IMG/VR virus record: IMGVR_UViG_3300021197_000785
Coordinates: 1 to 61,875 of that record
Source: a virus
Strand: one strand, 5' to 3'
Length of the DNA stretch: 61,875 nt
Part shown: in pieces, positions 1 to 51,172 of the stretch
How positions within the stretch are numbered: the stretch's first letter is position 1
How the letters are laid out: each line of letters opens with the position of its first letter
Notes under the pieces: generated by a model
Told to the model about the DNA's origin: nothing
Seen by the model: the letters and a program-made list of their open reading frames with translations, nothing else
The model's database searches: none
Made by a program: the position numbers and the translations under genes

Positions 1-180
1 ACAACTGCCTTTGCGTGTAAAATGTTTGCCTTGATCTAAGGGCAGACTGTCTAGTTCGTCTGCACATTGTTGCGTTATATCGTCAGGTAAAAAGTTGGGT
101 ATGTTTATCAGTCCATAACTAGGGTGCAGTTGATACTTCAACTTCAGCCTGCTTAGATCAAACTTATCATAGTCTATCAT
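1..180 (-). CDS. 2OG-Fe(II) oxygenase-like protein, N-terminal part (cut by window edge)
   Basis: Reading leftwards from an ATG at 180 gives 60 open codons that run off the window. The start overlaps the stop of the upstream gene as ATGA (177-180), the coupling used throughout this genome. The visible N-terminus (a GLINIPNFLP stretch at about residues 23-32, then FTRKGSC at about 54-60) resembles the N-terminus of a phage 2OG-Fe(II) oxygenase family. The catalytic HxD and distal His would lie outside the window, so the enzyme call is inference from the N-terminus and from the neighbouring dioxygenase-like gene. The gene itself is well supported. Confidence 0.6.
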   Translation of the reverse strand, partial: MIDYDKFDLSRLKLKYQLHPSYGLINIPNFLPDDITQQCADELDSLPLDQGKHFTRKGSC

Positions 181-8514: not shown

Positions 8515-8543
8515 ATTATATTTAGGTTTTGGGGGAATGTCAA
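8515..8543 (-). promoter_or_regulatory. Perfect-consensus sigma70 promoter upstream of gp45
   Basis: Minus strand TTGACA (8543-8538), 17 nt spacer, TATAAT (8520-8515); both boxes and the spacing are consensus. It lies 33 nt before the gp45 ATG at 8482, in the only gap between gp45 and the methyltransferase gene. Confidence 0.88.
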
Positions 8544-12736: not shown

Positions 12737-12765
12737 ATTATATATGGATGTGGGAGAAGTGTCAA
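12737..12765 (-). promoter_or_regulatory. Perfect-consensus sigma70 promoter for the DsbA-like/gp43 unit
   Basis: Minus-strand TTGACA (12765-12760), 17 nt, TATAAT (12742-12737), followed 28 nt later by the ATG at 12709 with AAGGAG in between. All twelve box positions match consensus. Confidence 0.88.
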
Positions 12766-27224: not shown

Positions 27225-27974
27225 CTATGCTTGGTTAGTCATTATTAGAATACTTAACTTGGTTTTTATGCCTCTTGCTAAAAAATTGTCTGCACAGTGT
27301 AGTTGTGTTTGATCCCAAACTACTGCACTGCCAGGCTTCCATTTATATATAGTTTCTATCTCTAATCCTTCAGCCCAATCGTAGGGCATGTGACTCATAT
27401 ATGTGTTCCAAGTTTCTTCGTCTATCTTATACCCATCACAGCAACCTTCTACATTACTTTGGTTTATTGGTCTTTTCCAACTTGATTGATTAGTGTTGCC
27501 TGTTTGTCCAGTGTTTGAATTGGCGTTGTTTCTTAAATAACTACGCTGTTTAAAGGTAATGCTATATGTGTCTGCCCAGCCTGTGTCATCGGCAACTACA
27601 TCAAGGGGTATTAATATAACTTTGTGTGGTATCTTATCCGCATACCATCGTAGGTCAGCATGTATTTTCCATGGCTTAATTGCTTCTTGCCAAGCAAAAA
27701 AATCTAACTTGTGGTCGCCTATTTCGCTTACTAACTTGTCGTGAAATATCTCTTGCATAATAGGACCATAGGGAGGATGTTCATAGGCACTTCCAGCATA
27801 CTTACTTGTACTGCCATGTTCTGGATATTCAACTGTATCAATAAGTTTGCGTAGCTCAGTCAAATCACTACTGCTAATTAAGTCATCTATTACCCAAGAG
27901 CCAGAATCTGATTCCTGCATTCTAGCAATTTGTTCATCTGTATAACTGTTATCCAAATAAACGTGTTGCGACAT
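27225..27974 (-). CDS. 2OG-Fe(II) dioxygenase-like protein
   Basis: 249 residues from the ATG at 27974, which has AAGGAAA upstream; a longer in-frame reading to 28046 would overlap the upstream gene by nearly 100 nt. Metal site candidates: H105-x-D107 (KIHADLRW) and a distal His in QLHCADN about 20 residues before the C-terminus, followed by IKTKLSIL where a Lys replaces the usual 2OG-binding Arg. DSBH fold likely, chemistry uncertain because of that substitution and an inserted Asn/Gly/Ser-rich loop near residues 145-170. Confidence 0.65.
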   Translation of the reverse strand: MSQHVYLDNSYTDEQIARMQESDSGSWVIDDLISSSDLTELRKLIDTVEYPEHGSTSKYAGSAYEHPPYGPIMQEIFHDKLVSEIGDHKLDFFAWQEAIKPWKIHADLRWYADKIPHKVILIPLDVVADDTGWADTYSITFKQRSYLRNNANSNTGQTGNTNQSSWKRPINQSNVEGCCDGYKIDEETWNTYMSHMPYDWAEGLEIETIYKWKPGSAVVWDQTQLHCADNFLARGIKTKLSILIMTNQA

Positions 27975-28236
27975 CTTTTGGTTTCCTTCCACGTTTTTTA
28001 TGTTCTTTGTAAGTGCCGTCAGGTTTGATGTTGTATGCTTTAGCAAAACGCTCAGGAATCATGCCCTCAATATCATGAATAGCGCCTGCAGGCATATCTG
28101 GATACCAATACACATCCTTTTTAATAAAGATGTCTTTGCCGCCCAAGCCTTTACTTTTAACGTTTGCATACACAAGTGTTTCCTCTGTTACAAGTTTGCG
28201 CTCTACTAGTGTACTAAGAAGTGAGTTATTCATCAT
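27949..28236 (-). CDS. Hypothetical protein with AT-hook-like tail, 95 aa
   Basis: Contains VSKS-less beta/alpha sequence with KKDVYWYPDMPAGAIHDIEG and a basic tail KKRGRKPKDVATRLFG; GRKPK resembles an AT-hook/R-G-R-K-P DNA-minor-groove motif. Starts at an ATGATG pair that overlaps the upstream TGA. Possibly DNA-binding; unproven. Confidence 0.72.
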   Translation of the reverse strand: MMNNSLLSTLVERKLVTEETLVYANVKSKGLGGKDIFIKKDVYWYPDMPAGAIHDIEGMIPERFAKAYNIKPDGTYKEHKKRGRKPKDVATRLFG

Positions 28237-28922
28237 TTATTTGTTTTCCTTATTTGATATTCAATAATTTTGTTTACTTTTGACCCAAGTTTAAATTGTA
28301 CAAGTTGTAGTAATCGTTCATTGGTTACATATCCAATGTTTTCGCCACACCATGTACCCCATCTGCGCACTGTGTCACTGTTGTTTATTTGAATATCATC
28401 TGGATATTGCATTGCCCAACGTGACCAATCAGTAAATTCTTCGAATGACATACGTTCGCCTACTATCTGAAATTTAAATTTATTATATGGTAAGCGTTTT
28501 TTTCTATAATGTATGTTACGATCTGCCTGTGTGCCAGGAAAATACCGAACACTTACAAGTTCCAGTATTGTATCAGTAACATCCGATTCTTTACTGTTAA
28601 GACGATTTACATACTGTATAACCTGATCTATATTATCAAGGTCACTAGTATAATAATTAAGTATTGTTCTTTCAACACGCACTCTATCATTGTGTCTTTT
28701 AGCAAATCGTCTTACTGTTCCACTAAAACTTTTTTGTATTTCTGTATCAACTTTGTATCCCCACCAGTCAACTGTTCTGACCTTCATTAACTCTGGCACA
28801 CGGTACTGATACATTAATACTTCAAGACGATAAAGATACTTGCCGTAAAAAAGTCTATCGTTATGCTTTAACGCTAGGTTGTGCTGATTGCTCAGCGTCT
28901 CCAACTTCTGCAGTTGATCCAT
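28233..28922 (-). CDS. Hypothetical protein, 229 aa
   Basis: Starts within the last 62 nt of the Clp gene; an AGG ribosome site about 7 nt before supports this ATG. Basic, Tyr/Arg-rich, with aromatic segments KVRTVDWWGYK and DWSRWAMQYPDD. No catalytic motif recognised. Its transcription follows dnaJ-clp, so it may belong to the same chaperone-linked unit. Confidence 0.75.
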   Translation of the reverse strand: MDQLQKLETLSNQHNLALKHNDRLFYGKYLYRLEVLMYQYRVPELMKVRTVDWWGYKVDTEIQKSFSGTVRRFAKRHNDRVRVERTILNYYTSDLDNIDQVIQYVNRLNSKESDVTDTILELVSVRYFPGTQADRNIHYRKKRLPYNKFKFQIVGERMSFEEFTDWSRWAMQYPDDIQINNSDTVRRWGTWCGENIGYVTNERLLQLVQFKLGSKVNKIIEYQIRKTNK

Positions 28923-31134
28923 CTTTATACCTAAACTTTATTAATAGACTATTGTTTGAATTTCTAACTTTAATTTTACAGCCAATTGCTGGTTTGTCAA
29001 CTAATTTCTTTGCAATAGGCATGCGTAACATTGTATCTATAGCACGAGCCATGGGCCTTGCTCCCATGCGTTCATCATATCCCTGTTCAAGAATAATATC
29101 AACACTTGGTTCATCAACGCTAAGTGCAACTCCTTTGTCTTTGAGTTGCTCCTGCAATTCTTGTATAAACTTTAGTGCTACTTTACGTTTTGCAATTTCG
29201 TCCAATGCGCCAAATGCGCACACTGCATCAATACGATTACGGAACTCAGGAGCAAAGAACTTTTTATAGGCATCTTCTGCTGCCCCTTCAACACGATCTC
29301 TACCAAAACCAATGGCGTTCTTTTCACCTTCGCTTGCGCCCAGATTTGTTGTAAGAATAACAAAACAGTTTCTAGCATCTGCACGTTTGCCGTTTGATCC
29401 TGTCACAAAGCCTTCATCCATAAGTTGTAGTAGTACATTGCTTACATCTGGATGTGCCTTTTCAATTTCATCAAACAATATTACTGCATGTGGATTACGT
29501 TCAATGTCACGAATAAGTAATCCTCCACCAAGGTTACCATCTTCAAATCCAACATATCCAGGAGGTGCACCAATAAAACGTGCTACAGTATGACGCTCTT
29601 GATATTCGCTCATATCATAGCGTAGTAATTTCATGCTATTTGCACTAGCAAGTTGCTTTGCAAGTTCTGTTTTGCCTGTGCCTGTTGGTCCAGTAAACAC
29701 AAATACGCCCAGTGTTTTATCGCGCTTGTTAAGTCCTGCTTTAGCAACCCATACTTTATCAAGTACACTGTCAACCGCTGTATCCTGTCCATAGACCTTG
29801 CTTTTAATTCTATCACTAATTGCATCTGGCTGTATCACAGATTCCTTCTTTTCACCTAATTGGCTAATAGGAATCTTTGCATACTTGCTAATCTCCTCAA
29901 GAATATTTTGACTATCAATTACAGGATTTTCTGTTCCTAGTCTACGTTGTTTTGCACTTGCGCTGTCAATCATATCAAATGCTTTATCAGGTAGTCGCTT
30001 GTCTGTCAAATAGCGCACACTCAAATCCACAGCATCATTCACTGCTTGTGCTGTAATCTTACAACTGTGAAACTTCTCATAGTATTTTTTACTGTTCATA
30101 AGAATCTTTTTAGCAAGTTCAGATGAAGGTTCGTCAACAGTAATGTGATAGAAGCGACGCATCAGCGCACGATCTTTTTCAAAACTACTGTTGTATTCCT
30201 CCCATGTAGTACTGGCAATAACTTTTAGTTTGCCTCTACCCAAATAAGGTTTTAACATATTGGCAAAATCAGTCCCACCATTGCCGCCGGCACCTGCACC
30301 TTTAAGTGTGTGTGCTTCGTCAATAAACAGTATACACTTGCCTTTTTCAATCAGTGCACCTAATACTTCTTTAACACGTTCTTCAAACTGTCCACGGTAC
30401 TGTGTACCAGCAAGCATGTTTGCTACATCTAGATTATATACAATGTGATCTTGTAAATATACAGGCACTTCTTTTCTTACTATTTTTACAGCAAGTCCTT
30501 CTGCTACTGCAGTCTTACCTACACCTGGATCACCTACCATAAGCACATTGCTTTTATTGCGGCGTGCAAATGTTTGTGTTATATCATCAATGACGTCGTC
30601 CCTGCCAATTACAGGATCTAGTGTCTTTGCCCGTGCCTGTTCATTTAAATCTTCACAGTATTCATTAACAATACCATCAAGATACTGTTCGTGTTTCTGG
30701 CTTAACTGACGGGTTTTATTATTGGTTTTCATAAACCGCATAAACTCGTCTTTGGATACATTGTATTTCATTAAAAAGTAACTACTGTGACTGTTTTGTT
30801 CACTAGTAATGCTTATAAACAAATCAAATAGTGTTAGTGTTTCTCTGCCACTAAACAACACACTGGTCATTGCACGATTGAATACACGTTCCAAGGATTG
30901 CGTTTTGATTTGTCCTGTGCCGTCCACACTTGAAAATGCGTCCACTAAGTGGCTTTCTAAATCAAGTTGCAGTTCGTTTAGTTGTACTCCGAACTCCAGT
31001 AAATTTTTTGCAAACTCTTTATTTTTTAATATAGCAAGCAAAAAATGTTCTGTACTTAGGTACTGATGTCCATACTTGCTTGCTATTTTGCCAGCAAAGG
31101 CTAGTGTTTGATCTACTTCTTTAGCAGTTTTCAT
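28861..31134 (-). CDS. ClpA-like AAA+ unfoldase (Hsp100)
   Basis: 757 residues (E. coli ClpA 758). N-domain about 1-140; AAA-1 with Walker A GDPGVGKT (201-208) and Walker B CILFIDEAH; AAA-2 with GPTGTGKT (482-489), Walker B VILFDEIEKAH (551-561), and the FRNRID arginine/sensor region near 631. There is no ClpB-type middle coiled coil, so it is ClpA/C-like. An IGF tripeptide at 608-610 sits where ClpA has its ClpP-docking IGL loop. Unfolds proteins for a peptidase or remodels complexes in the cytosol. Cotranscribed with the J-protein (4-nt overlap). No ClpP in the window, so host ClpP may be the partner. Confidence 0.93.
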   Translation of the reverse strand: MKTAKEVDQTLAFAGKIASKYGHQYLSTEHFLLAILKNKEFAKNLLEFGVQLNELQLDLESHLVDAFSSVDGTGQIKTQSLERVFNRAMTSVLFSGRETLTLFDLFISITSEQNSHSSYFLMKYNVSKDEFMRFMKTNNKTRQLSQKHEQYLDGIVNEYCEDLNEQARAKTLDPVIGRDDVIDDITQTFARRNKSNVLMVGDPGVGKTAVAEGLAVKIVRKEVPVYLQDHIVYNLDVANMLAGTQYRGQFEERVKEVLGALIEKGKCILFIDEAHTLKGAGAGGNGGTDFANMLKPYLGRGKLKVIASTTWEEYNSSFEKDRALMRRFYHITVDEPSSELAKKILMNSKKYYEKFHSCKITAQAVNDAVDLSVRYLTDKRLPDKAFDMIDSASAKQRRLGTENPVIDSQNILEEISKYAKIPISQLGEKKESVIQPDAISDRIKSKVYGQDTAVDSVLDKVWVAKAGLNKRDKTLGVFVFTGPTGTGKTELAKQLASANSMKLLRYDMSEYQERHTVARFIGAPPGYVGFEDGNLGGGLLIRDIERNPHAVILFDEIEKAHPDVSNVLLQLMDEGFVTGSNGKRADARNCFVILTTNLGASEGEKNAIGFGRDRVEGAAEDAYKKFFAPEFRNRIDAVCAFGALDEIAKRKVALKFIQELQEQLKDKGVALSVDEPSVDIILEQGYDERMGARPMARAIDTMLRMPIAKKLVDKPAIGCKIKVRNSNNSLLIKFRYKDGSTAEVGDAEQSAQPSVKA

Positions 31135-31949
31135 TTATCATCCCGTAATTTCTTGCATATATTTAATTGTTGTTCAGTTAAGTTTTCAGGTATTTTAACC
31201 AATACTTGTACAAGCAAATCACCTCTTGTACTAGTCTTTGTGTACATACCATGATTGGGTATTTTCAGCGTTGCACCGTATTGTGTGCCTGCTGGAATAT
31301 TTAGGTTGAGTGTCTTATTTTCAATAGTATGTATTTGAACTACTGTACCTATTATAGCATCCCATGCGCCTATTGTCAAGTGCATTTTTAGGTTGTCATT
31401 GTCTCGGGTAAACACTTCGTGGTCTAGCATATTAATTGTAACAGTAAGGTCACCAGGACTTAAATTACTATGTATGTAATCTCCTAGTCCACTATATTTA
31501 ATTTTTGTACCATTGTTGACTCCAATTGGTATCTTTAAATTTACAAGATGCCTTGAACCGTTGGTGTGTCTTATGCTAACTGTTTTTTGTTGTTCGCTTA
31601 GTATTTCTTCCAGTGTGCAGTCCACTGTGATGCCCAGGTTTTTATTTGATTTTACACGTTGGTAATCGCGTTTACTAGGATGGAATCCTGCACTGCCAAA
31701 TACAGTAAACATGTCATCATAAACATCACTAGTGTTTATCTTAATGTTTTGCCTACGACTGTTGCGAACGTCAAATGCTGCACGTTTATGAGGATCTTTA
31801 AGAACTTCATATGCTTCTGCAACCGCGTGGAAAGTGTCAACATCTCCGCCGCTGTCAGGGTGATGCTGTTTTGCTTTGTTGCGATATGCTGATTGTATAT
31901 CTTTAGGACTACATGTAGGTTCCAGTCCTAGTACATCATAATAGTTCAT
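31131..31949 (-). CDS. J-domain co-chaperone (CbpA/DnaJ-like)
   Basis: 272 residues: J domain about 1-65 with H30-P31-D32 (KQHHPDSGG), a linker, then two DnaJ C-terminal beta domains (from about 105, with IGVNNGTKIKYSGLGD and IPAGTQYGATLKI). The zinc-finger cysteines of DnaJ are absent, so it is CbpA-type. J-proteins stimulate DnaK ATPase and select substrates. First gene of the unit, with a promoter just upstream, coupled to the Clp gene by ATGA. Expected to redirect host DnaK. Confidence 0.88.
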   Translation of the reverse strand: MNYYDVLGLEPTCSPKDIQSAYRNKAKQHHPDSGGDVDTFHAVAEAYEVLKDPHKRAAFDVRNSRRQNIKINTSDVYDDMFTVFGSAGFHPSKRDYQRVKSNKNLGITVDCTLEEILSEQQKTVSIRHTNGSRHLVNLKIPIGVNNGTKIKYSGLGDYIHSNLSPGDLTVTINMLDHEVFTRDNDNLKMHLTIGAWDAIIGTVVQIHTIENKTLNLNIPAGTQYGATLKIPNHGMYTKTSTRGDLLVQVLVKIPENLTEQQLNICKKLRDDK

Positions 31950-37366: not shown

Positions 37367-38416
37367 TTACTTTACCAGCTCTGCTTTGTAAACACTCTTT
37401 AGTCCAAGTGCTTCTGTGTTAAACTTAACTAAGTTGCGCAGTGCTGGCTCTGTGATAAATGTCATAAGCACATCTCTGTGTGCATTGCCATCAGCACCGA
37501 TCTTCCAATCATACACGCCAACTTTCTTTTGAATGTTTGCAGTTGCTTTTGGATCTTTGCTCATTGCAGTTAGTGCTGCTTGTAGTGCCGCTGCATTTGG
37601 ATTGTCTTTGCGCACCCACAATGCTTTTTGCATACCGTCACGGAAACTTTTAACAAGTTTATATGCATCGTAAAACTCACCACTTGGTGCTACACCGTAC
37701 TGTTTAGCAAACATTTCTTCAAACTGATAACCAGGATAGTTTGGATCTGCTACATGACTTTTACTTGCTGCATCCAGGATACCATGATGGAACCATAGTT
37801 CAGCGTCTGCGTTTGAAGCAACATGTTTTTTGTATGCTGCTGGATTTTCACGAGTGCCGTTTAGTTCGCCACGCTTAAATGCAAGACGTCTTTCGCCACC
37901 GCTCATGCCACTTACCCAGGTTACATTTTTATCAAAGCATTGTGCATACTCATCTATTGTAAGTCGTGGACCACACATAAGCATTGTCATTGCAAATGCT
38001 TCTGGCACCATACCTGATCCTGCTGCAAAACTAACTTTGTCTCCTGCTTGATAGTCTTTGCGGATACCTGCAATAATGTTTAGGTTCATAAGTCCAACAC
38101 TGGTGTAGTCTGCATAGTTATAGTCTACGTTCTCTTGTAGAAAACTAACACCATTGCCGCCGTGTGACACCATTACAGTTTTGTCATCTGCTTGTAGTTT
38201 GTTGTGAAATTCGTTAAAGCCAGGAATGTCACGAGCACCTGGAATAGTTTTAATAATAATCTTCTCACCCAAGAACGGCTCAAGTTCTTTGGCAACAATC
38301 TCTGCCCAAACAGTGGTACCACCGCCTGGCTTTTGTGGAACAACAAATGTATAATCTGCACTTGCTGTTGTGGTCATACCTAGCACAATGGCTAGACTCA
38401 TTAGTAATTTACGCAT
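37367..38416 (-). CDS. tctC: TctC-type periplasmic substrate-binding protein of a tripartite tricarboxylate transporter
   Basis: 349 residues. A signal peptide (RKLLMSLAIVLGMTTTASA) is followed by TFVVPQKPGGGTTVWAEIVA, matching the Bug/TctC 'PPGGGTD' opening, then a two-lobed binding fold. TctC-type proteins bind carboxylates such as citrate, tartrate or other small organic acids. It overlaps the permease gene by 8 nt. The C-terminus (LGLKSVYKAELVK) is complete. Slightly longer than average Bug proteins (about 320 aa). Confidence 0.85.
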   Translation of the reverse strand: MRKLLMSLAIVLGMTTTASADYTFVVPQKPGGGTTVWAEIVAKELEPFLGEKIIIKTIPGARDIPGFNEFHNKLQADDKTVMVSHGGNGVSFLQENVDYNYADYTSVGLMNLNIIAGIRKDYQAGDKVSFAAGSGMVPEAFAMTMLMCGPRLTIDEYAQCFDKNVTWVSGMSGGERRLAFKRGELNGTRENPAAYKKHVASNADAELWFHHGILDAASKSHVADPNYPGYQFEEMFAKQYGVAPSGEFYDAYKLVKSFRDGMQKALWVRKDNPNAAALQAALTAMSKDPKATANIQKKVGVYDWKIGADGNAHRDVLMTFITEPALRNLVKFNTEALGLKSVYKAELVK

Positions 38417-39863
38417 AATCTAATCTCCTTTTAGAGGTTATACCCCAAGCAAACACACCCGTGGTCACTAGTACAAGTATAACAAATATTGGTCTTGTAA
38501 TCAATGTATCAATTGAATACAGTGTTGTCATTTGTAGTGTTAGAGCCTCTACACGCTCTGCTAGTATAAATCCAATAACCATTCCTGGTCTACTGAACTT
38601 GTAAGTCTTACACAGTATGCCTAAAGCACTACATACTGCAAGTATAAAGTAATCTTCCCAACCACCTGTGTACTGAACACATGCCCAGGTAATAAACACA
38701 AGCAGCAACGGAAAATAGTATCGGTATGGCACACGGGTAATAGCACTGATGTAGCGTGTGAATAACAAACACAGTATGCCTACCAGCACAGTTGCCCACA
38801 TAAAACCAAATGTTAAACTGTCAAAGAAACGTTGATCATATGCTAAGTCAGGTGTACCTAATTCAAATCCCAAGTACATAAACAGTGCTATAATAACAGC
38901 CGCAAATGGAGCACCAGGAATACCAAACAGCACAGTGGGAATCATGCTGGTTGCTTTTTGTGCATTGTTAGCACCCTCTGGTCCTATAACACCTTTGATG
39001 TTTCCATCGCCGAACTTGTCGTTTGGGTGGGCGGCAACAGTTGAACCATAAGCCATCCAATCTGCCATCGCGCCGCCCAAACCAGGCAGTAATCCGATAA
39101 ACGCACCAATAAATCCACCTCGGAGTGCATCGAATTTATTAGCCCATACTGCCTGCACACCTGCTACAGTTTGACCAAATTGATCAGTACTGTCTGTAGT
39201 AGCAAGTCTACGTTTTAATCCATCAACCAGTTCTGGTACTGCAAATAACCCTGCAACAAATGGCATAAGTTGTATGCCGTTGCCCAAGTAATCCCAGCCC
39301 ATTGTATAACGATCTGCATTAGTAGTAGGGTCAGTGCCTATAAAGCCTAGCCCAATGCCCACAGCAATAGCAATCAAACTGCGCACCCACCAACGACTTG
39401 ACACAAAGCCAACAGTGGCTAGTGCAAGCATGGTAAACGCCCAGAGTTCAGGAATGCCCAGGATCATTAACAAGTTTGTGTACCAGGGCAACAATGCAAA
39501 CGTTAGTGTTCCCCACAGCAAGCCATTTACAGTGCTTGTTGTCACTGCGGCTGTTATTGCGTATGTTGCTTGACCTTTTTGCGCAAGAGGAAAACCATCC
39601 ACCATTGTTGCGGCTGCACTGTTAGCACCTGGTATACCCAGCAACACACCTGTGTATGTGTCACCTGTTGTGCTGGCTGCTACCACTGCCATACAAAAGA
39701 TAACACCCAAGTAAGGATCATTTACAAAGTATGCAATGAATCCAAACAGTGCCACAAGTCCAGTAGTAGCACCAGCACTTGGGATGATGCCAATTAATAG
39801 TCCATATAATGTACCTGCCACAAGGGCATATATTTCAGCCATAGAGAAATCACAGTCGCGCAA
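38409..39863 (-). CDS. tctA: TctA-type permease of a tripartite tricarboxylate transporter
   Basis: Multi-span membrane protein of up to 484 residues. Hallmarks: GTLYGLLIGIIPSAGATTGL near the start, LPGLGGAMADWMAYG centrally, and PEGANNAQKATSMIP followed by TVLFGIPGAPFAA, which match the TctA 'PE-x-ANNA...IP...GIPG' signature. TctA uses a sodium or proton gradient with TctC and TctB. Start is unclear: TTG at 39863 has AAAGG about 11 nt before; ATG at 39842 lacks one and would be shorter. The small TctB subunit is not present in the window. A late-type promoter and a 5' leader hairpin precede it. Confidence 0.88.
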   Translation of the reverse strand: MRDCDFSMAEIYALVAGTLYGLLIGIIPSAGATTGLVALFGFIAYFVNDPYLGVIFCMAVVAASTTGDTYTGVLLGIPGANSAAATMVDGFPLAQKGQATYAITAAVTTSTVNGLLWGTLTFALLPWYTNLLMILGIPELWAFTMLALATVGFVSSRWWVRSLIAIAVGIGLGFIGTDPTTNADRYTMGWDYLGNGIQLMPFVAGLFAVPELVDGLKRRLATTDSTDQFGQTVAGVQAVWANKFDALRGGFIGAFIGLLPGLGGAMADWMAYGSTVAAHPNDKFGDGNIKGVIGPEGANNAQKATSMIPTVLFGIPGAPFAAVIIALFMYLGFELGTPDLAYDQRFFDSLTFGFMWATVLVGILCLLFTRYISAITRVPYRYYFPLLLVFITWACVQYTGGWEDYFILAVCSALGILCKTYKFSRPGMVIGFILAERVEALTLQMTTLYSIDTLITRPIFVILVLVTTGVFAWGITSKRRLDYA

Positions 39864-44116: not shown

Positions 44117-44144
44117 ATAATAGCACAGTATTAGATGTTGTCAA
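44117..44144 (-). promoter_or_regulatory. Sigma70-type promoter for the HAD gene
   Basis: Minus-strand TTGACA (44144-44139), 16 nt, TATTAT (44122-44117), 29 nt before the ATG at 44087. The -35 box lies in the last codons of the upstream dioxygenase gene. Confidence 0.72.
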
Positions 44145-44679
44145 CCTTTTTAGTGTATACAATCATAGTATATCTTGTGTGTAGACCAGCATTGGCTGCA
44201 CTGTGTATTAGGTTATCAAAACTATACACATCGCCTGCACTATACTTTGTAAGCACTTGTTCGCCTACAAACAGAGCCTGTCCGAATGCACTGTCCTCTA
44301 AAGGTATCCATAATCTTACAACTTCATCTACGTTAAAATTGGGATTATTACGAAGCGCATGGTTAAATTTATCAACATGCGGTACACTAAACGTAGCAGG
44401 ATCTACTCTAAGCACTATAACATTATCAGGTTTATCAATACCATGTTCTTGTAAAAATGCGTCTGGAATAATATCTTTATACCAGTCTTTACAATACTCA
44501 TTAATAAGACAATGGTCATAGTGTATGTAATTTTCAACAGGCAATTCAAAGGCGAAGTCTACTACATTTTGTGCATGAGTTTTACCATCTACATGTTTTA
44601 CTACACGATCAGGATCACGACCTTTAACATCATCTAATAACTTTTGTGGAATATCAATATTTCCTAATAAGGTTATCAT
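44131..44679 (-). CDS. 2OG-Fe(II)/Asp-Asn hydroxylase-like oxygenase
   Basis: 182 residues. Metal/2OG signature: H101-x-D103 (SVPHVDKF), H159 (NLIHSAAN) and R169 (THTRYTM region). Strands before it (NVIVLRVDPA) fit the DSBH core. 4-nt overlap with the next gene. The substrate is unknown. Confidence 0.72.
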   Translation of the reverse strand: MITLLGNIDIPQKLLDDVKGRDPDRVVKHVDGKTHAQNVVDFAFELPVENYIHYDHCLINEYCKDWYKDIIPDAFLQEHGIDKPDNVIVLRVDPATFSVPHVDKFNHALRNNPNFNVDEVVRLWIPLEDSAFGQALFVGEQVLTKYSAGDVYSFDNLIHSAANAGLHTRYTMIVYTKKVDNI

Positions 44680-45323
44680 GTTACAACTTTCACATAGTTA
44701 AGCACAGTTTCTTTTCCACCGTGAAACTTGCTAACCTGATGACGTTTTACCTTGGCACTTATCTCACAGTTTTTGCCCCAATGCTCCGCTGGATGTTTGG
44801 TAAAGAAGCATACAAGTGCTCCATTTAACTCAGCATTTACAACATGGCATTGTAGACTCTGTATAAAACTACAGTTTAGTACACTAATTTGTCCCTGGAT
44901 ATTATCACCTTCAGTGCCTATATGCCCGCTAGTAGTGCTTAGTTTACGCATCTGATTATCTGTTTCATCGCGTTTTACACTGCGAAAATATGCTTTGGGT
45001 AAACTTGCAATGATACCAATATCCCTGCGATCGCATTGTCCACTCTGTATAATAGCGAGAACTTTTTGTTCAAAGTCATTGATCTTAGCACCCATTGCTT
45101 TAAATGTAAGACCCTTGTAATACTGGATAATATTTTCTGCAATCTCTTCACATTCTTTTGTGATATGATCCACAAACAATGTTTGTGTACCAGGAATAAC
45201 TCCTAAGTGACTTTGTATGATTCGCTTATTTGTAACTGTGCCATAGTTTGCATAAGTCTCACCTTTTTGAAAGTGTGCAGATACAGCGTAAGTCATCACA
45301 GTTTTAAGGTCATTAGTATCCAT
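44676..45323 (-). CDS. OB-fold nucleic-acid-binding-like protein, 215 aa
   Basis: N-terminal charged helices (TITKECEEIAENIIQYYKG region) and a C-terminal half with alternating strands, GDNIQGQISVLNCSF and NGALVCFFTKHP, then KVKRHQVSKFHGGKETVLNY, the pattern of an OB-fold single-strand-binding or regulatory domain seen in phages. It has its own sigma70-like promoter, suggesting an early replication or host-takeover role. Family identity not certain. Confidence 0.6.
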   Translation of the reverse strand: MDTNDLKTVMTYAVSAHFQKGETYANYGTVTNKRIIQSHLGVIPGTQTLFVDHITKECEEIAENIIQYYKGLTFKAMGAKINDFEQKVLAIIQSGQCDRRDIGIIASLPKAYFRSVKRDETDNQMRKLSTTSGHIGTEGDNIQGQISVLNCSFIQSLQCHVVNAELNGALVCFFTKHPAEHWGKNCEISAKVKRHQVSKFHGGKETVLNYVKVVT

Positions 45324-45358: not shown

Positions 45359-45386
45359 ATTATAGCACCAATGGAAAATTTGTCAA
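45359..45386 (-). promoter_or_regulatory. Sigma70-type promoter overlapping a divergent gene start
   Basis: Minus-strand TTGACA (45386-45381), 16 nt, TATAAT (45364-45359), 35 nt before the ATG at 45323. The -35 box lies inside the first six codons of the plus-strand dioxygenase gene. Confidence 0.72.
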
Positions 45387-46009
45387 CCTCACAGTGGAAA
45401 AAATATCAAGATTACACTATAGAACGTTTTAATTCTACTAGTGTTGAGTATGATCCTTATTGGCATATTTTTATTGAGGACATATTGCATCCTGAATTGT
45501 TCCAATTAGTACTAGCAGAATGGCCCGACTTTGAAGCAGGACAATGTCAGTGGGCTTTTAGTAAAAATGCACCAGATCAAAGCCCAAATCGCAAAATATA
45601 TCAACCTAATAGACCAGACGGATACCAGTTTTGGAAACAATATTATGACAATATGATTGATAATCCAAACATTATTAGTGCAGCATACAGACTAGAAGGT
45701 ATAGAAACAACACCTGATTATGTAACTGCAAGTATTTGGGAGGATTATCATGGGTACGCTGTGGGCAATCATGTTGACCACCACACTATTGATCTTGCAT
45801 GGCAAACATACGTTTATTGCAGTGGGGGCGAAGGTTGGGGTACTAGCATGAATAACTCCGAGGGCGAACAACTAAAGCGTTTTCCATTCAAACAAAACAG
45901 TGGTTGGCTAATGCGTGTTGATGCAGGTAGTTGGCATAGTTGCGATCCAGTAGACTGTGATGTGCGTCGTAGTATTATGGCACGTTTTATGACTAAGCAG
46001 AGAGGCTAG
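45371..46009 (+). CDS. 2OG-Fe(II) oxygenase-like protein
   Basis: 212 residues on the plus strand. H134-x-D136 (GNHVDHHT), then H189 (GSWHSCDP) and R199/R200 (DVRRSIM) give the full Fe/2OG site. N-terminal residues (WHIFIEDILHPELFQLVL) look like the helical start common to phage 2OG enzymes. It runs against neighbouring genes and its 3' end overlaps the gp44 3' end by 17 nt (convergent). Its own promoter is not obvious. Function unknown. Confidence 0.78.
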   Translation: MENLSTSQWKKYQDYTIERFNSTSVEYDPYWHIFIEDILHPELFQLVLAEWPDFEAGQCQWAFSKNAPDQSPNRKIYQPNRPDGYQFWKQYYDNMIDNPNIISAAYRLEGIETTPDYVTASIWEDYHGYAVGNHVDHHTIDLAWQTYVYCSGGEGWGTSMNNSEGEQLKRFPFKQNSGWLMRVDAGSWHSCDPVDCDVRRSIMARFMTKQRG

Positions 46010-46916
46010 TAAGTTCTACTAGTGTTGCTGCCAAGTTAATTTCTTGGTCTGCTACCATTGGAATGTTACGCAATCCTTTTGCAATGATGAGGATAGCAGC
46101 ATCCTTTTGCTCATCTGTAGTTCCCCACAGTTCCAAGTTATCATACATCCAACGGAACAATTCATCCATTTCCTCAGGACGCACTTGACTGCACAGCATC
46201 TTACGAGCCTCAAGTATCTTGCCTTGTTTAAACAAGTCTACTACTGCTAGTTTATAGTCTGCTGTCGCACTGTCACCTTCATTGGGCTTTACAAGTTTGC
46301 CGTCAATGGTGTTCATCTGACATAAGTTCAAACATTTACGCAAGTCAGGATATGTTGCTTTTACATAACTGTCCAGTGTATCAATATCAATCTCTACACC
46401 TTCTTCAACACACACTGTTGCAATGCGGGCAGTGAACTCTGTGTGATCAATTTTTTCAATATGAAAGCCCTGACATCTACTGTGCAGTGCAGGAATAACT
46501 TTGTTTGGATAGTTACAAGTTAGAATAAAACGGCTACTGCTTGCATAGGTTTCCATAACACCGCGTAGTGCCGCCTGACCATTTGGACTAATATAATCAG
46601 CCTCGTCAAGTAGTACAACCTTAAACTCACCAAAAGGCATAGTTTGCACAAAGTTAGTAATCTTGTCACGCACATTTTCAACACTGTTCTCACGACTAGC
46701 GTTGATCTCTAGTACATCATACTCATCAATATCCAGCATATTGATAAGCACTTTTGCAAGAGTTGTTTTGCCTGTGCCTGGAGCACCACTGAACAACAAG
46801 TGTGGAATAGTTTTACTATCTACCCAGCCCTGTACTTGTTTACGTTGTGCATCATCGCGGAACACATAGTCGTCTAGTGTGCTAGGGCGATACTTCTCAG
46901 TCCATAGTTCTTTCAT
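45993..46916 (-). CDS. gp44: Clamp-loader ATPase (T4 gp44-like)
   Basis: 307 residues (T4 gp44 319). Walker A GAPGTGKTT (44-52), Walker B VVLLDEADYIS, and the SRC motif HSRCQGF. It forms the loader with gp62 that opens the gp45 ring. It starts 8 nt after the aminotransferase stop, so it appears to be expressed from that gene's promoter, an unusual coupling. No gp62 gene is recognised in this window. Confidence 0.9.
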   Translation of the reverse strand: MKELWTEKYRPSTLDDYVFRDDAQRKQVQGWVDSKTIPHLLFSGAPGTGKTTLAKVLINMLDIDEYDVLEINASRENSVENVRDKITNFVQTMPFGEFKVVLLDEADYISPNGQAALRGVMETYASSSRFILTCNYPNKVIPALHSRCQGFHIEKIDHTEFTARIATVCVEEGVEIDIDTLDSYVKATYPDLRKCLNLCQMNTIDGKLVKPNEGDSATADYKLAVVDLFKQGKILEARKMLCSQVRPEEMDELFRWMYDNLELWGTTDEQKDAAILIIAKGLRNIPMVADQEINLAATLVELTSLSA

Positions 46917-46924
46917 AGTTTACC

Positions 46925-48118
46925 TTAATATAATTTGTGAACATTATCTTTTGCACTTGAATACGCACTAATAGCAGCACCCACGCCACTGCCTGGTTTA
47001 AACTGAACATTTAGATCACGCATTGCAAGCTCAACACCACCGAGAACACCCAACACCATTGTTTCATTAAGCCATCCAAGATGTCCAATTCGGAATACAT
47101 TTCCATTAAGCGGTCCAAGTCCTGCTCCTAAACTAATGCCATATTCATTGTATGCATGTAGTATAACATCATTTGCATCTGTTTGTCTATCTACAACAAT
47201 ACTAGTTACTGTATCACTTGCTGTGCTAGGATCTTTTGCGGCAATAGTAAGTCCCCAAGCATCCACAGCAGCTCTTACACCGCTGGCTAATCTATTGTGC
47301 CTTGCCCACACATTTTCCATGCCTTCTTCCAACAGTATGTCAGTGCCAGTACGCAATCCGCGCATCAGAGTCATTGCAGGTGTATAAGGAAAATAGCCAG
47401 TTTCGTTACTACTAAGCATAGTGCCAAAATCATAATACTTTATTTTGCTTTTCCACTTGCCGCCCTTGATGATGTTTATCACACGCTCACTAAGTGCTAC
47501 AACAACTAGTCCAGTGGGCATCATGAAACCTTTTTGTGATCCTGCAATTGCAACATCAACACGCCATTCATCGTGTCTGTATTCAATACAGCCAATGCTA
47601 CTGATGCCATCCACCATAAGCAGTGCAGGATGATCCAGTTCGTCTAGCAGTTCGCGCACTGCGCCAACATTACTAGTGACACCAGTTGCAGTTTCATTTT
47701 GACACACCATCACCGCTTTGATCATTTTACTTGTGTCACTTTCTAAAACTTCACGATAACTATCAAGTGGTGTTGCTTCTCCCCATTCAACACTTATATC
47801 ATGCACTGCAAACTTCATGTCCTGGCACATTTGTACCCATAGTTTGCTAAACTGCCCAAACTGGCTAACAAGCACACGATCACCTTCAAATAGCAAATTT
47901 TCTAAACCTGCTTGCCAGCCTCCTGTGCCAGTGCCTGGAAATACAACTACACTGCCTGTTTCAGTTTTAAATACTTTTTTTAGATCTTCCATGAGGGGGG
48001 TTACAAAACTAGGCAAGTCAGGTGCTCTGTGATCCTCTGTAGGAATATACATACTTTGTGATATTCTGTTAGGCACGTTCGTAGGTCCGGGTACTGCTAG
48101 TGTTCTGTTCCCAATCAT
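46925..48118 (-). CDS. Serine-glyoxylate/alanine-glyoxylate-type aminotransferase
   Basis: 397 residues. N-terminal LAVPGPTNVP (class V family start), PLP-binding D170 (MVDGISSIG), and Schiff-base lysine K196 in GSQKGFMMPTG. Length and motifs match AGXT/SgaA-type enzymes that move amino groups between serine/alanine and glyoxylate, giving glycine and hydroxypyruvate or pyruvate. AAGGAG 8 nt before the ATG. Directly upstream of gp44 with a sigma70-like promoter. Unusual in phages; substrate (Ser, Ala or Asp; glyoxylate) is inferred from family and not determined by residues seen. Confidence 0.88.
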   Translation of the reverse strand: MIGNRTLAVPGPTNVPNRISQSMYIPTEDHRAPDLPSFVTPLMEDLKKVFKTETGSVVVFPGTGTGGWQAGLENLLFEGDRVLVSQFGQFSKLWVQMCQDMKFAVHDISVEWGEATPLDSYREVLESDTSKMIKAVMVCQNETATGVTSNVGAVRELLDELDHPALLMVDGISSIGCIEYRHDEWRVDVAIAGSQKGFMMPTGLVVVALSERVINIIKGGKWKSKIKYYDFGTMLSSNETGYFPYTPAMTLMRGLRTGTDILLEEGMENVWARHNRLASGVRAAVDAWGLTIAAKDPSTASDTVTSIVVDRQTDANDVILHAYNEYGISLGAGLGPLNGNVFRIGHLGWLNETMVLGVLGGVELAMRDLNVQFKPGSGVGAAISAYSSAKDNVHKLY

Positions 48119-48255
48119 TTCAAAGTCTCCTTGTATGAACCGTCTAAGTTATAGTGTTTACCATTATATATGAAACAACCCAATGCTGTCAATATTCCAT
48201 ATTGCTTTCTTAGTTGTTTATACCATGCTATGTAATGTTTAATTGAGTTCGCCAT
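48115..48255 (-). CDS. Small hypothetical protein, 46 aa
   Basis: The ATG at 48255 overlaps the upstream gene by 17 nt and its stop overlaps the aminotransferase start as ATGA. Basic, Tyr-rich (SIKHYIAWYKQLRKQYGILT) with one possible short span. The promoter boxes at 48163-48192 lie inside it, so it could be merely the leader; translation is plausible but uncertain. Confidence 0.5.
   Translation of the reverse strand: MANSIKHYIAWYKQLRKQYGILTALGCFIYNGKHYNLDGSYKETLK
48163..48192 (-). promoter_or_regulatory. Sigma70-type promoter for aminotransferase-gp44
   Basis: Minus-strand TTGACA (48192-48187), 18 nt, TATAAT (48168-48163), 44 nt upstream of the ATG at 48118. Both boxes are perfect but the spacer is one nt long; lies inside a small open frame. 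Confidence 0.65.
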
Positions 48256-49210
48256 AAACCAATATACTCGTTCTAACTTTGTCGCCTTCATGTATAACTG
48301 CATGAGGATGTTCAATTGTATCTAATAATAATGGTTTATCTAACGGAAGTATTCCGCCTCTGCCCTGTTTGAAATACACACCTTCATGTGCTTTGCATGC
48401 CCAATACAGTTTTTTGCATCCCCGCATATAAGGATATGCTGCCCTTTTATAATGGTCATCTCTGTGTATATCAATGTAGGTGCCTGGACTAAGTGTTTGT
48501 ATACTAATGTCAAGTATTCTTGTATATCCAACACTAGTTACAAAGTCTCGTACAAGTGGACTACTAATATCATCTAGTTCAATAAAGGGCAAGTCACTTG
48601 CATATTCTTTAATTTGACTAATACAATATCCACGATTATATCTTTCTTCTGTGTATTTCATCATGGGCTGTAGTTCTGACAAGAGCTCGTCTGTATCATA
48701 CTCTGGTAAATTACAATAACGCCAGGGCACCATATCTTCTTTGTACCACCACTGTGGTCCATGTGCAGTTGCATAAAAACTGCGTATGCGTTCGGGCCAG
48801 TTACCCGTTGTGATCAAAGGTCTATCTACAGTAAGTGTATAATTTTCAAATAAATTTTGTCCATAATCACCATTGCGTATTGCTTCATATATACGCGAGT
48901 ACATTTCACCAATCTCAGTGTGTATCCATATGGTAAAAACACATCCCGTGTCCCATACTGCAGTAGCAGGCTGATGCACTGTTCCATTACCGTCAGTGCA
49001 ATACCCAGTATAAATCATGTGTTTTATACTGTCTCCGTTTATTTGTATGTCTGAAATTTCTATTTTAGTGTCAACATATTCTACACATAGTTCATACCAA
49101 CCACGTGGAATATTTTGTTCTGTGTCTAATGAAATTTGAAAAGTAGTGTTACTAAGGTCTTTTAGGTAAAAGTTTTGTAATGGATTATCACTAGTTACTG
49201 ATAGTTTCAT
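48239..49210 (-). CDS. Two-part protein with C-terminal Asp/Asn hydroxylase-like dioxygenase domain, 323 aa
   Basis: ATG at 49210 used; a TTG three codons earlier is also open. The C-terminal ~130 residues have H249-x-D251 (DIHRDDHY) and EHPHAVIHEGDKVRTSIL with candidate distal His (303 or 307) and Arg (313), typical of aspartyl beta-hydroxylase-like enzymes. The N-terminal half is beta-rich and unrecognised (LYLKD-like strands, WDTGCVFTIWIHT). Overlaps the sulfotransferase-like gene by 20 nt. Substrate unknown. Confidence 0.68.
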   Translation of the reverse strand: MKLSVTSDNPLQNFYLKDLSNTTFQISLDTEQNIPRGWYELCVEYVDTKIEISDIQINGDSIKHMIYTGYCTDGNGTVHQPATAVWDTGCVFTIWIHTEIGEMYSRIYEAIRNGDYGQNLFENYTLTVDRPLITTGNWPERIRSFYATAHGPQWWYKEDMVPWRYCNLPEYDTDELLSELQPMMKYTEERYNRGYCISQIKEYASDLPFIELDDISSPLVRDFVTSVGYTRILDISIQTLSPGTYIDIHRDDHYKRAAYPYMRGCKKLYWACKAHEGVYFKQGRGGILPLDKPLLLDTIEHPHAVIHEGDKVRTSILVYGELN

Positions 49211-49736
49211 ATAATTCAAAATCCTCTTTATAAAGGTTTTCTACTTCACATTCTTCGATAAAGAAGTTTATAAGTGCAATAAGTGCAGGGTCTGCGTTCT
49301 CTGGATATAATTCAAAAGACTCATAGCCATTGTCAGTTGCCCAAGTGCTAAAGTTATCTAAACTTACAAACTGCCAATCTATCTTTTTATATCGTTCACT
49401 TGCTGCAGTTTGCTTCTGTAAGTGTACTGGATCAATATTATACCAATCCTTGGGATCATCCTCAAGTGTTTCACGCAATAGTTCTTCTGTGTCTGACCAT
49501 TGTGCCATAGGCTCTTTGCCCTGCGCACTTGCATAACGCTTGATCACAGTTTGAATCTGTTTTGGCAACCTACCGTTAGGATTCCTAACAAGATAAATTG
49601 CTGTTGCTTCTTCAATCTTTTTTACATCTGCATCACCAAGTTGTACAAAGCCGTTTTGTTCGCCCCATGCAATAATGCTGCGTCTAGCACATTTGGGACT
49701 AGTCCCTATCAGATGTTTTCCGTTCCATATCACCAT
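49191..49736 (-). CDS. Sulfotransferase-like P-loop protein, 181 aa
   Basis: Opens with a short strand and GTSPKCARRSII (a phosphate-binding loop with Ser-Pro-Lys like PAPS enzymes), followed later by IYLVRNPNGRLP, the RxP 3'-phosphate strand. A start three bases earlier (TTG) is possible. Charged C-terminus. It is the third sulfotransferase-like protein here. Acceptor and even the reaction are uncertain. Confidence 0.62.
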   Translation of the reverse strand: MVIWNGKHLIGTSPKCARRSIIAWGEQNGFVQLGDADVKKIEEATAIYLVRNPNGRLPKQIQTVIKRYASAQGKEPMAQWSDTEELLRETLEDDPKDWYNIDPVHLQKQTAASERYKKIDWQFVSLDNFSTWATDNGYESFELYPENADPALIALINFFIEECEVENLYKEDFELYETISN

Positions 49737-50273: not shown

Positions 50274-50639
50274 TTACTCCTTAGTTGCTGCTATAGCGGC
50301 TGCTAAACCGCCTGTTGCACTTGTGGGTTCTACTTCCACAGTTTCTTCAACTGCTTGTTGAGGTGCTTCCCAGTCTTTCCAATCATCATCGTCTGCTTCT
50401 ACTGCACTGCTCTCACGGATTGTTCCGTCCTCAGGAATCATTGTGTTTAGTTTGTGATATTCACGCATAATTTCTTCGCGACTTTTTGTAATGTTTCCTG
50501 CTGCGTCAATCTGGTCACCACGGGCATTAACATTCATGTTACCAAGTGCAGGTGCAGTTTCATTAGCAAGTATCATTGCTCCAAAGTCTATATTTTTTCC
50601 ATTTGCTGTTCTATAAGTCTTGCCCTTTTTAGGTGCCAT
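50274..50639 (-). CDS. Conserved hypothetical protein, 121 aa
   Basis: Basic start (MAPKKGKTYRTANGKNIDFG), the segment NMNVNARGDQIDAAG, then an acidic, Ala-rich tail (DDDDWKDWEAPQQ). This pattern occurs repeatedly in marine T4-like phages, but I do not know its function. Overlaps the oxygenase gene by 1 nt. Confidence 0.75.
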   Translation of the reverse strand: MAPKKGKTYRTANGKNIDFGAMILANETAPALGNMNVNARGDQIDAAGNITKSREEIMREYHKLNTMIPEDGTIRESSAVEADDDDWKDWEAPQQAVEETVEVEPTSATGGLAAAIAATKE

Positions 50640-51172
50640 TAGATTCTCCTTAGTGCATAATCAATTGCAAAACGTTTTTTGTCTGTTGTAATATCCTTTG
50701 AGGCATGAATAATGCGCGGATCAAATACAATAAAGTTTCCTGGTGTCATTTTGTACTGCTTGTTGTCGTGACTAAAATCACCACCCATAGTTTCAGGATC
50801 CCAAAATGCATCCAGTATACCTAATATTTTAATATTATCATCTTCATCATAGTCAGTATGAAAATTATCCCTGCGTGTGCGATCCTTAATACTAATTTGA
50901 CAACTAACTACTTCCCATTCATCAAACAATCCAGGATGCGTTGCTTGTACTGCTTCATCCATTTGTACAAACAATCCTAGTGCCATACCTGCTAGTACGC
51001 CAGTTTCTACAACTGGTTCTTTGTTTATCAAACGTAGTTTTGCAAAACGGTTTTCTATTTCTTTTACGTTCATGGGCCAGCGCCAGTCCCAATGCGGACT
51101 ATCTTCTGCGTATACCTTCATTGTAGCCAAGTAGTTTAGGCTACATGCGTTTTCTATTACTACTGTTTCCAT
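50639..51172 (-). CDS. 2OG-Fe(II) oxygenase superfamily protein
   Basis: 177 residues. H105-x-D107 (NFHTDYDE), H156 (RIIHASKD) and R167 (KKRFAID) give a complete Fe/2OG site, with GNFIVFDPR as the strand before the distal His. Resembles phage prolyl-hydroxylase/PhyH-like proteins. A sigma70-like promoter lies upstream. Substrate unknown. Confidence 0.78.
   Translation of the reverse strand: METVVIENACSLNYLATMKVYAEDSPHWDWRWPMNVKEIENRFAKLRLINKEPVVETGVLAGMALGLFVQMDEAVQATHPGLFDEWEVVSCQISIKDRTRRDNFHTDYDEDDNIKILGILDAFWDPETMGGDFSHDNKQYKMTPGNFIVFDPRIIHASKDITTDKKRFAIDYALRRI

Follow-up and report, generated by a model that had tools for sequence, protein, structure and literature searches.

A serine-glyoxylate-type aminotransferase gene beside the clamp-loader gene of a T4-like phage, a candidate auxiliary metabolic gene

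The closest solved relative, by sequence, of the phage protein described here is Arabidopsis AGT1 (PDB 6pk1, E=1.5e-103). In this enzyme, the substrate is surrounded by Pro15, Gly16, Tyr35', Arg36', Thr148, Lys201, Thr250' and Arg347 (PMC6797613). A bacterial member of the superfamily, the BhcA of Paracoccus, likewise accepts serine, either with glyoxylate (KM 2.1 mM, kcat 8.8 per s) or with oxaloacetate (PMC9436414). Auxiliary metabolic genes are already known in phages. In the literature searched, which left most subscription papers out of reach, no report of a phage serine-glyoxylate aminotransferase (SGAT) as an auxiliary gene was found.

The DNA analyzed, hereafter named the window, is a stretch of 61,875 nucleotides from a virus. 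It carries an intact ORF for an SGAT-type class V (fold type I PLP) aminotransferase at 46925-48118 on the minus strand (397 aa, ATG start; Pfam Aminotran_5, PF00266, E=6.2e-22). An 8-nt spacer (GGTAAACT, 46917-46924) separates its stop from the ATG of a gp44-type sliding-clamp loader subunit on the same strand (45993-46916, 307 aa), which matches the clamp-loader family phrog_168 over its full length (residues 2-303 of 307, E=4.2e-79). On the other side, the stop of a small minus-strand ORF (48115-48255, 46 aa) overlaps the SGAT start (ATGA). A perfect sigma70-type promoter, TTGACA-N18-TATAAT (48192-48163 on the minus strand, 12/12 match), is located within this small ORF, 44 nt upstream of SGAT. 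The first-pass annotation had described an aminotransferase with Lys196 in a GSQKG motif and Asp170, followed after 8 nt by gp44 in one same-strand unit and preceded by a sigma70-like promoter; each of these features is indeed present. On the far side of gp44, an ORF on the plus strand (45371-46009) converges on the gene and shares 17 nt with its end; the next gene on the minus strand (44676-45323) is preceded by a perfect promoter of its own (45386-45359). Hence, SGAT and gp44 would most simply be the only genes on a transcript from the 48192 promoter.

Perfect TTGACA-16..18-TATAAT sites occur five times in the window (8515-8543, 12737-12765, 31351-31379, 45359-45386 and 48163-48192), all on the minus strand. 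As shuffled sequences gave an expectation of 0.12, this is more than chance would produce. All 14 sites with at least 11/12 matches also lie on the minus strand. The five perfect sites precede minus-strand genes, including that of the DNA polymerase gp43, with none on the plus strand, and may serve as a map of the likely host-sigma70 promoters of the phage. Among relatives carrying gp44, which are not independent of one another, 27 of 80 have a site of at least 11/12 upstream of this gene, compared with 21 of 400 random control stretches. In one of the contigs encoding a close SGAT homolog (L002), the promoter reaches only 9/12 although the gene order is that of the window.

The SGAT structure was predicted by AlphaFold with 26 rows (pLDDT 90.9), and the best PDB match of the model is again 6pk1 (TM 0.96/0.95). 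The residues equivalent to those of the plant enzyme are P10, G11, H30, R31, T143, K196, T246 and R343, so that all listed substrate and PLP residues are kept, with the sole exception of Tyr35', replaced by a histidine. The PLP-binding (Schiff-base) Lys196 is accompanied by the upstream Asp170 in a class V fold, and Arg343 (Arg347 in the plant enzyme), T143, T246, P10 and G11 are found in all three phage proteins of the window's clade. Of the serine side-chain pair Tyr35'/Arg36', the arginine is kept as Arg31 and the tyrosine corresponds to His30. A histidine at this place is, as far as the alignment tells, normal among bacterial relatives: it is present in all 30 SAR116-order rows, in 13 of 14 BhcA-like rows and in many other bacterial rows. 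Glu69 is replaced by Gln in the three phage proteins; the other 185 of the 188 rows all have Glu. Residue 69 directly follows the PLP phosphate loop. Overall, the tree, the predicted fold and the active-site residues assign the protein to the group of plant AGT1 and bacterial SGATs, as first proposed, and the tree does not place it within the cysteine desulfurases or kynureninases. Matches in INPHARED were below 30% identity, in unannotated records, and were discarded as close kin.

A member of the same family could catalyze another reaction, as an aspartate-glyoxylate (BhcA-like) or alanine/pyruvate aminotransferase, and would then affect the flow of aspartate/oxaloacetate or of nitrogen instead of the use of serine. 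BhcA (NF045640) is the best NCBIfam match, His30/Arg31 are common to the SGAT and BhcA groups, and specificities overlap, since the Paracoccus enzyme takes serine. However, the score of 502 bits is below the equivalog cut-off of 650 bits, whereas the cellular BhcA rows that exceed it score 654-758 bits and are found elsewhere in the tree. Identity with BhcA was therefore rejected. In addition, a D-2-hydroxyacid dehydrogenase of the hydroxypyruvate-reductase type lies near SGAT in cellular Silicimonas (L033) and G596 (L193), which fits a route from serine to hydroxypyruvate and glycerate. We regard a reaction other than serine use as unlikely, though a serious candidate. As BhcA also accepts serine with glyoxylate, Ser, Asp and Ala are all compatible with the sequence as amino donor.

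The origin of the gene was examined with two maximum-likelihood trees, of 96 and 50 rows, whose topologies agree. The SGATs of the window, L002 and L003 form one phage clade (support 100/100), the window protein being 95% identical to that of L002 and 79% to that of L003. This clade is nested with five SGATs from the order of genome G254 (100/100), an alphaproteobacterial order that is probably Puniceispirillales (SAR116). The donor lineage is thus one alphaproteobacterial order, probably SAR116 and not SAR11, and the link to SAR11-type hosts drawn in the first-pass annotation is not supported. Small-genome alphaproteobacteria, possibly including SAR11, have more distant SGAT copies (about 42-47% identity). 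In the G254 order, the cellular SGAT adjoins an ORF with an ScfR start motif in 30 of 30 loci (L113-L115, L163-L189), a motif seen in just 2 of the 80 cellular loci from elsewhere; the ScfR neighbor was confirmed with Pfam in L192 and in the close relative L033. This pairing suggests that the host controls SGAT by short-chain acyl-CoA status. The host of the phage itself can only be presumed. Its three tRNAs have similarly good matches in many alphaproteobacteria (at best 92% over 78 nt in class-wide genomes, and 89% over 81 nt or 95% over 63 nt in the G254 order).

A transporter gene was also considered with respect to this lineage. At 37367-39863 (minus strand), the window encodes the TctA of a tripartite tricarboxylate transporter (Pfam 1.8e-88), uncommon in phage, and the ORF just downstream reads like its solute-binding partner TctC, with no Pfam match. 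In the G254 genome (L190, 1022-4110 and 6807-8030) and in Neomegalonema (L036, 622-5161), SGAT lies near genes reading as a tctCBA-type operon. Capture of TctA and SGAT as one module from the G254 order was rejected, since the window TctA shows no more than 37% identity with that order's TctA.

The insertion site is defined by a near relative of the window, L210, whose gp44 is 98% identical and which has no aminotransferase. L210 has the same upstream gene (homolog of that at 49191, 86%) and the same small ORF, which runs into the start of gp44 in the way that the window's small ORF runs into that of SGAT, with a TTGACA-18-TATAAT promoter at the same place upstream of gp44. A window ORF between the small ORF and the 49191 gene (48239-49219) is also absent from L210. 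Hence, SGAT looks like a clean cassette, either inserted between a pre-existing promoter/small ORF and gp44 or cleanly lost in L210; gain is favored, as SGAT is rare among gp44 relatives. Within the stretch examined for each, only 1 of 80 such relatives has it, namely the L002 contig itself, and 24 relative records searched over their full length gave no match. The SGAT-gp44 order is common to the window and L002. In L003, the neighbors of SGAT are a UDG-like gene on one side and, on the other, a small ORF that follows dCMP deaminase; UvsX and a DnaB-type helicase are encoded in the same region. The proposed tie to gp44 is not conserved, with the gene located elsewhere in L003, one of the three members of the phage clade, and missing from the stretch examined in 79 of the 80 gp44 relatives. 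The SGAT-less sister L210 would offer a natural with/without pair for the effect of one auxiliary gene.

A further 27 contigs (L006-L032), several of which also hold gp44, encode SGATs of another clade (support 99-100). A tree in which all phage SGATs are constrained to a single clade is 102 log units worse and is rejected by the AU test (p-AU 0.0005). A single origin is therefore discarded, and phages acquired SGAT at least twice. Within this second group, L022, L025 and L031 have ORFs that by reading resemble rubrerythrin and a small cytochrome of the c type (about 5159-6913 in L022 coordinates), and in L006 and L007 SGAT is followed by ORFs reading like PstS, which binds phosphate, and a porin.

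The window gene is cell-derived, nested in a cellular clade, and has phage genes on both sides, which bears out its earlier designation as a candidate auxiliary metabolic gene. Comparison with L002 gives a dN/dS of 0.12, and in the comparison with L003 synonymous sites are saturated while the proteins are still 79% identical; SGAT is thus under purifying selection. These features point to a genuine auxiliary metabolic gene that looks functional and lies under the promoter of gp44. Alternatively, SGAT could be a recent passenger, a captured host gene without benefit kept by chance in few phages. Its rarity among gp44 relatives and in whole records would suit such a passenger, but the purifying selection, the kept catalytic residues and the fact that phages captured this family a second time, independently, make this improbable. 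Involvement of the enzyme in DNA hypermodification or another phage-specific transamination was also considered, given its place within the replication module and the dCMP deaminase and C5-cytosine methylase nearby in L003. However, no hydroxymethylase, base kinase or amino-acid:DNA transferase was recognized near SGAT and the substrate site keeps its residues for small amino acids, so that we hold this to be very improbable. Finally, an assembly chimera or host contamination is effectively refuted, even for a metagenome-derived virus record, since the independent contig L002 has the same gene at the same place, with a 95% identical protein and phage genes on both sides.

Glycine supply for purine and one-carbon synthesis would be the best explanation of SGAT. 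A T4-like phage would have captured the gene from an alphaproteobacterium, probably a member of the SAR116 order, with the point of insertion exactly between gp44 and a sigma70 promoter/small ORF already present. Both genes would be transcribed jointly by the host RNA polymerase in the early or middle stage of infection. With PLP as cofactor, the enzyme would then transaminate glyoxylate, using serine or another compound as amino donor and yielding glycine and hydroxypyruvate, and glycine would feed purine synthesis and, via glycine cleavage, provide one-carbon units for nucleotides. We give this whole explanation a probability of about 0.6. The subset of window ORFs scanned yielded no other gene of glycine or one-carbon metabolism. 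Glyoxylate/glycine metabolism is known to limit the growth of streamlined marine cells (SAR11). A broader proposal, which we put forward tentatively and at less than even odds, is that T4-like phages took up SGAT on two or more occasions, from different bacteria, and that the enzyme serves to convert glyoxylate, whose sources could include phytoplankton glycolate, into glycine for purines. The window copy, under the clamp-loader promoter, would hard-wire precursor supply to replication and escape ScfR-type host control. If so, phages of abundant marine bacteria would redirect glyoxylate/glycine metabolism.

Other window ORFs were assigned by reading or motif. Those at 177-758, 27225-28046, 44131-44679, 45371-46009, 48239-49219 and 50639-51172 resemble 2-oxoglutarate/Fe(II) oxygenases, with no Pfam match among those scanned. 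At 28861-31949 (minus strand), a ClpA/C-like AAA+ ATPase lies beside a DnaJ-like ORF.

Compared with known systems, the phage SGAT is closest in structure to A. thaliana AGT1 (6PK1), a peroxisomal serine/alanine/asparagine:glyoxylate aminotransferase, with a fold TM of 0.96, 42-44% identity and a common Lys/Asp/Arg/Thr active-site set including the Arg36' equivalent. It differs by His30' in place of Tyr35' and by being a phage gene, with no organelle involved. With BhcA, an L-aspartate:glyoxylate aminotransferase, it shares the superfamily branch and His30/Arg31, but neither a score above the family cut-off nor the clade. The SGATs of the G254 order, which include the phage clade's sister group, have the same active site at 56-66% identity, whereas the phage copy lacks the ScfR-type neighbor and sits on a long stem branch (0.68-0.79). 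The second phage clade likewise places SGAT on phage contigs, several with gp44, but stems from an independent acquisition (46-50% identity), and its SGAT is not beside gp44. Like known phage auxiliary metabolic genes, the window SGAT is a metabolic gene of host origin, carried by a phage genome of lytic type and placed under a phage-side promoter.
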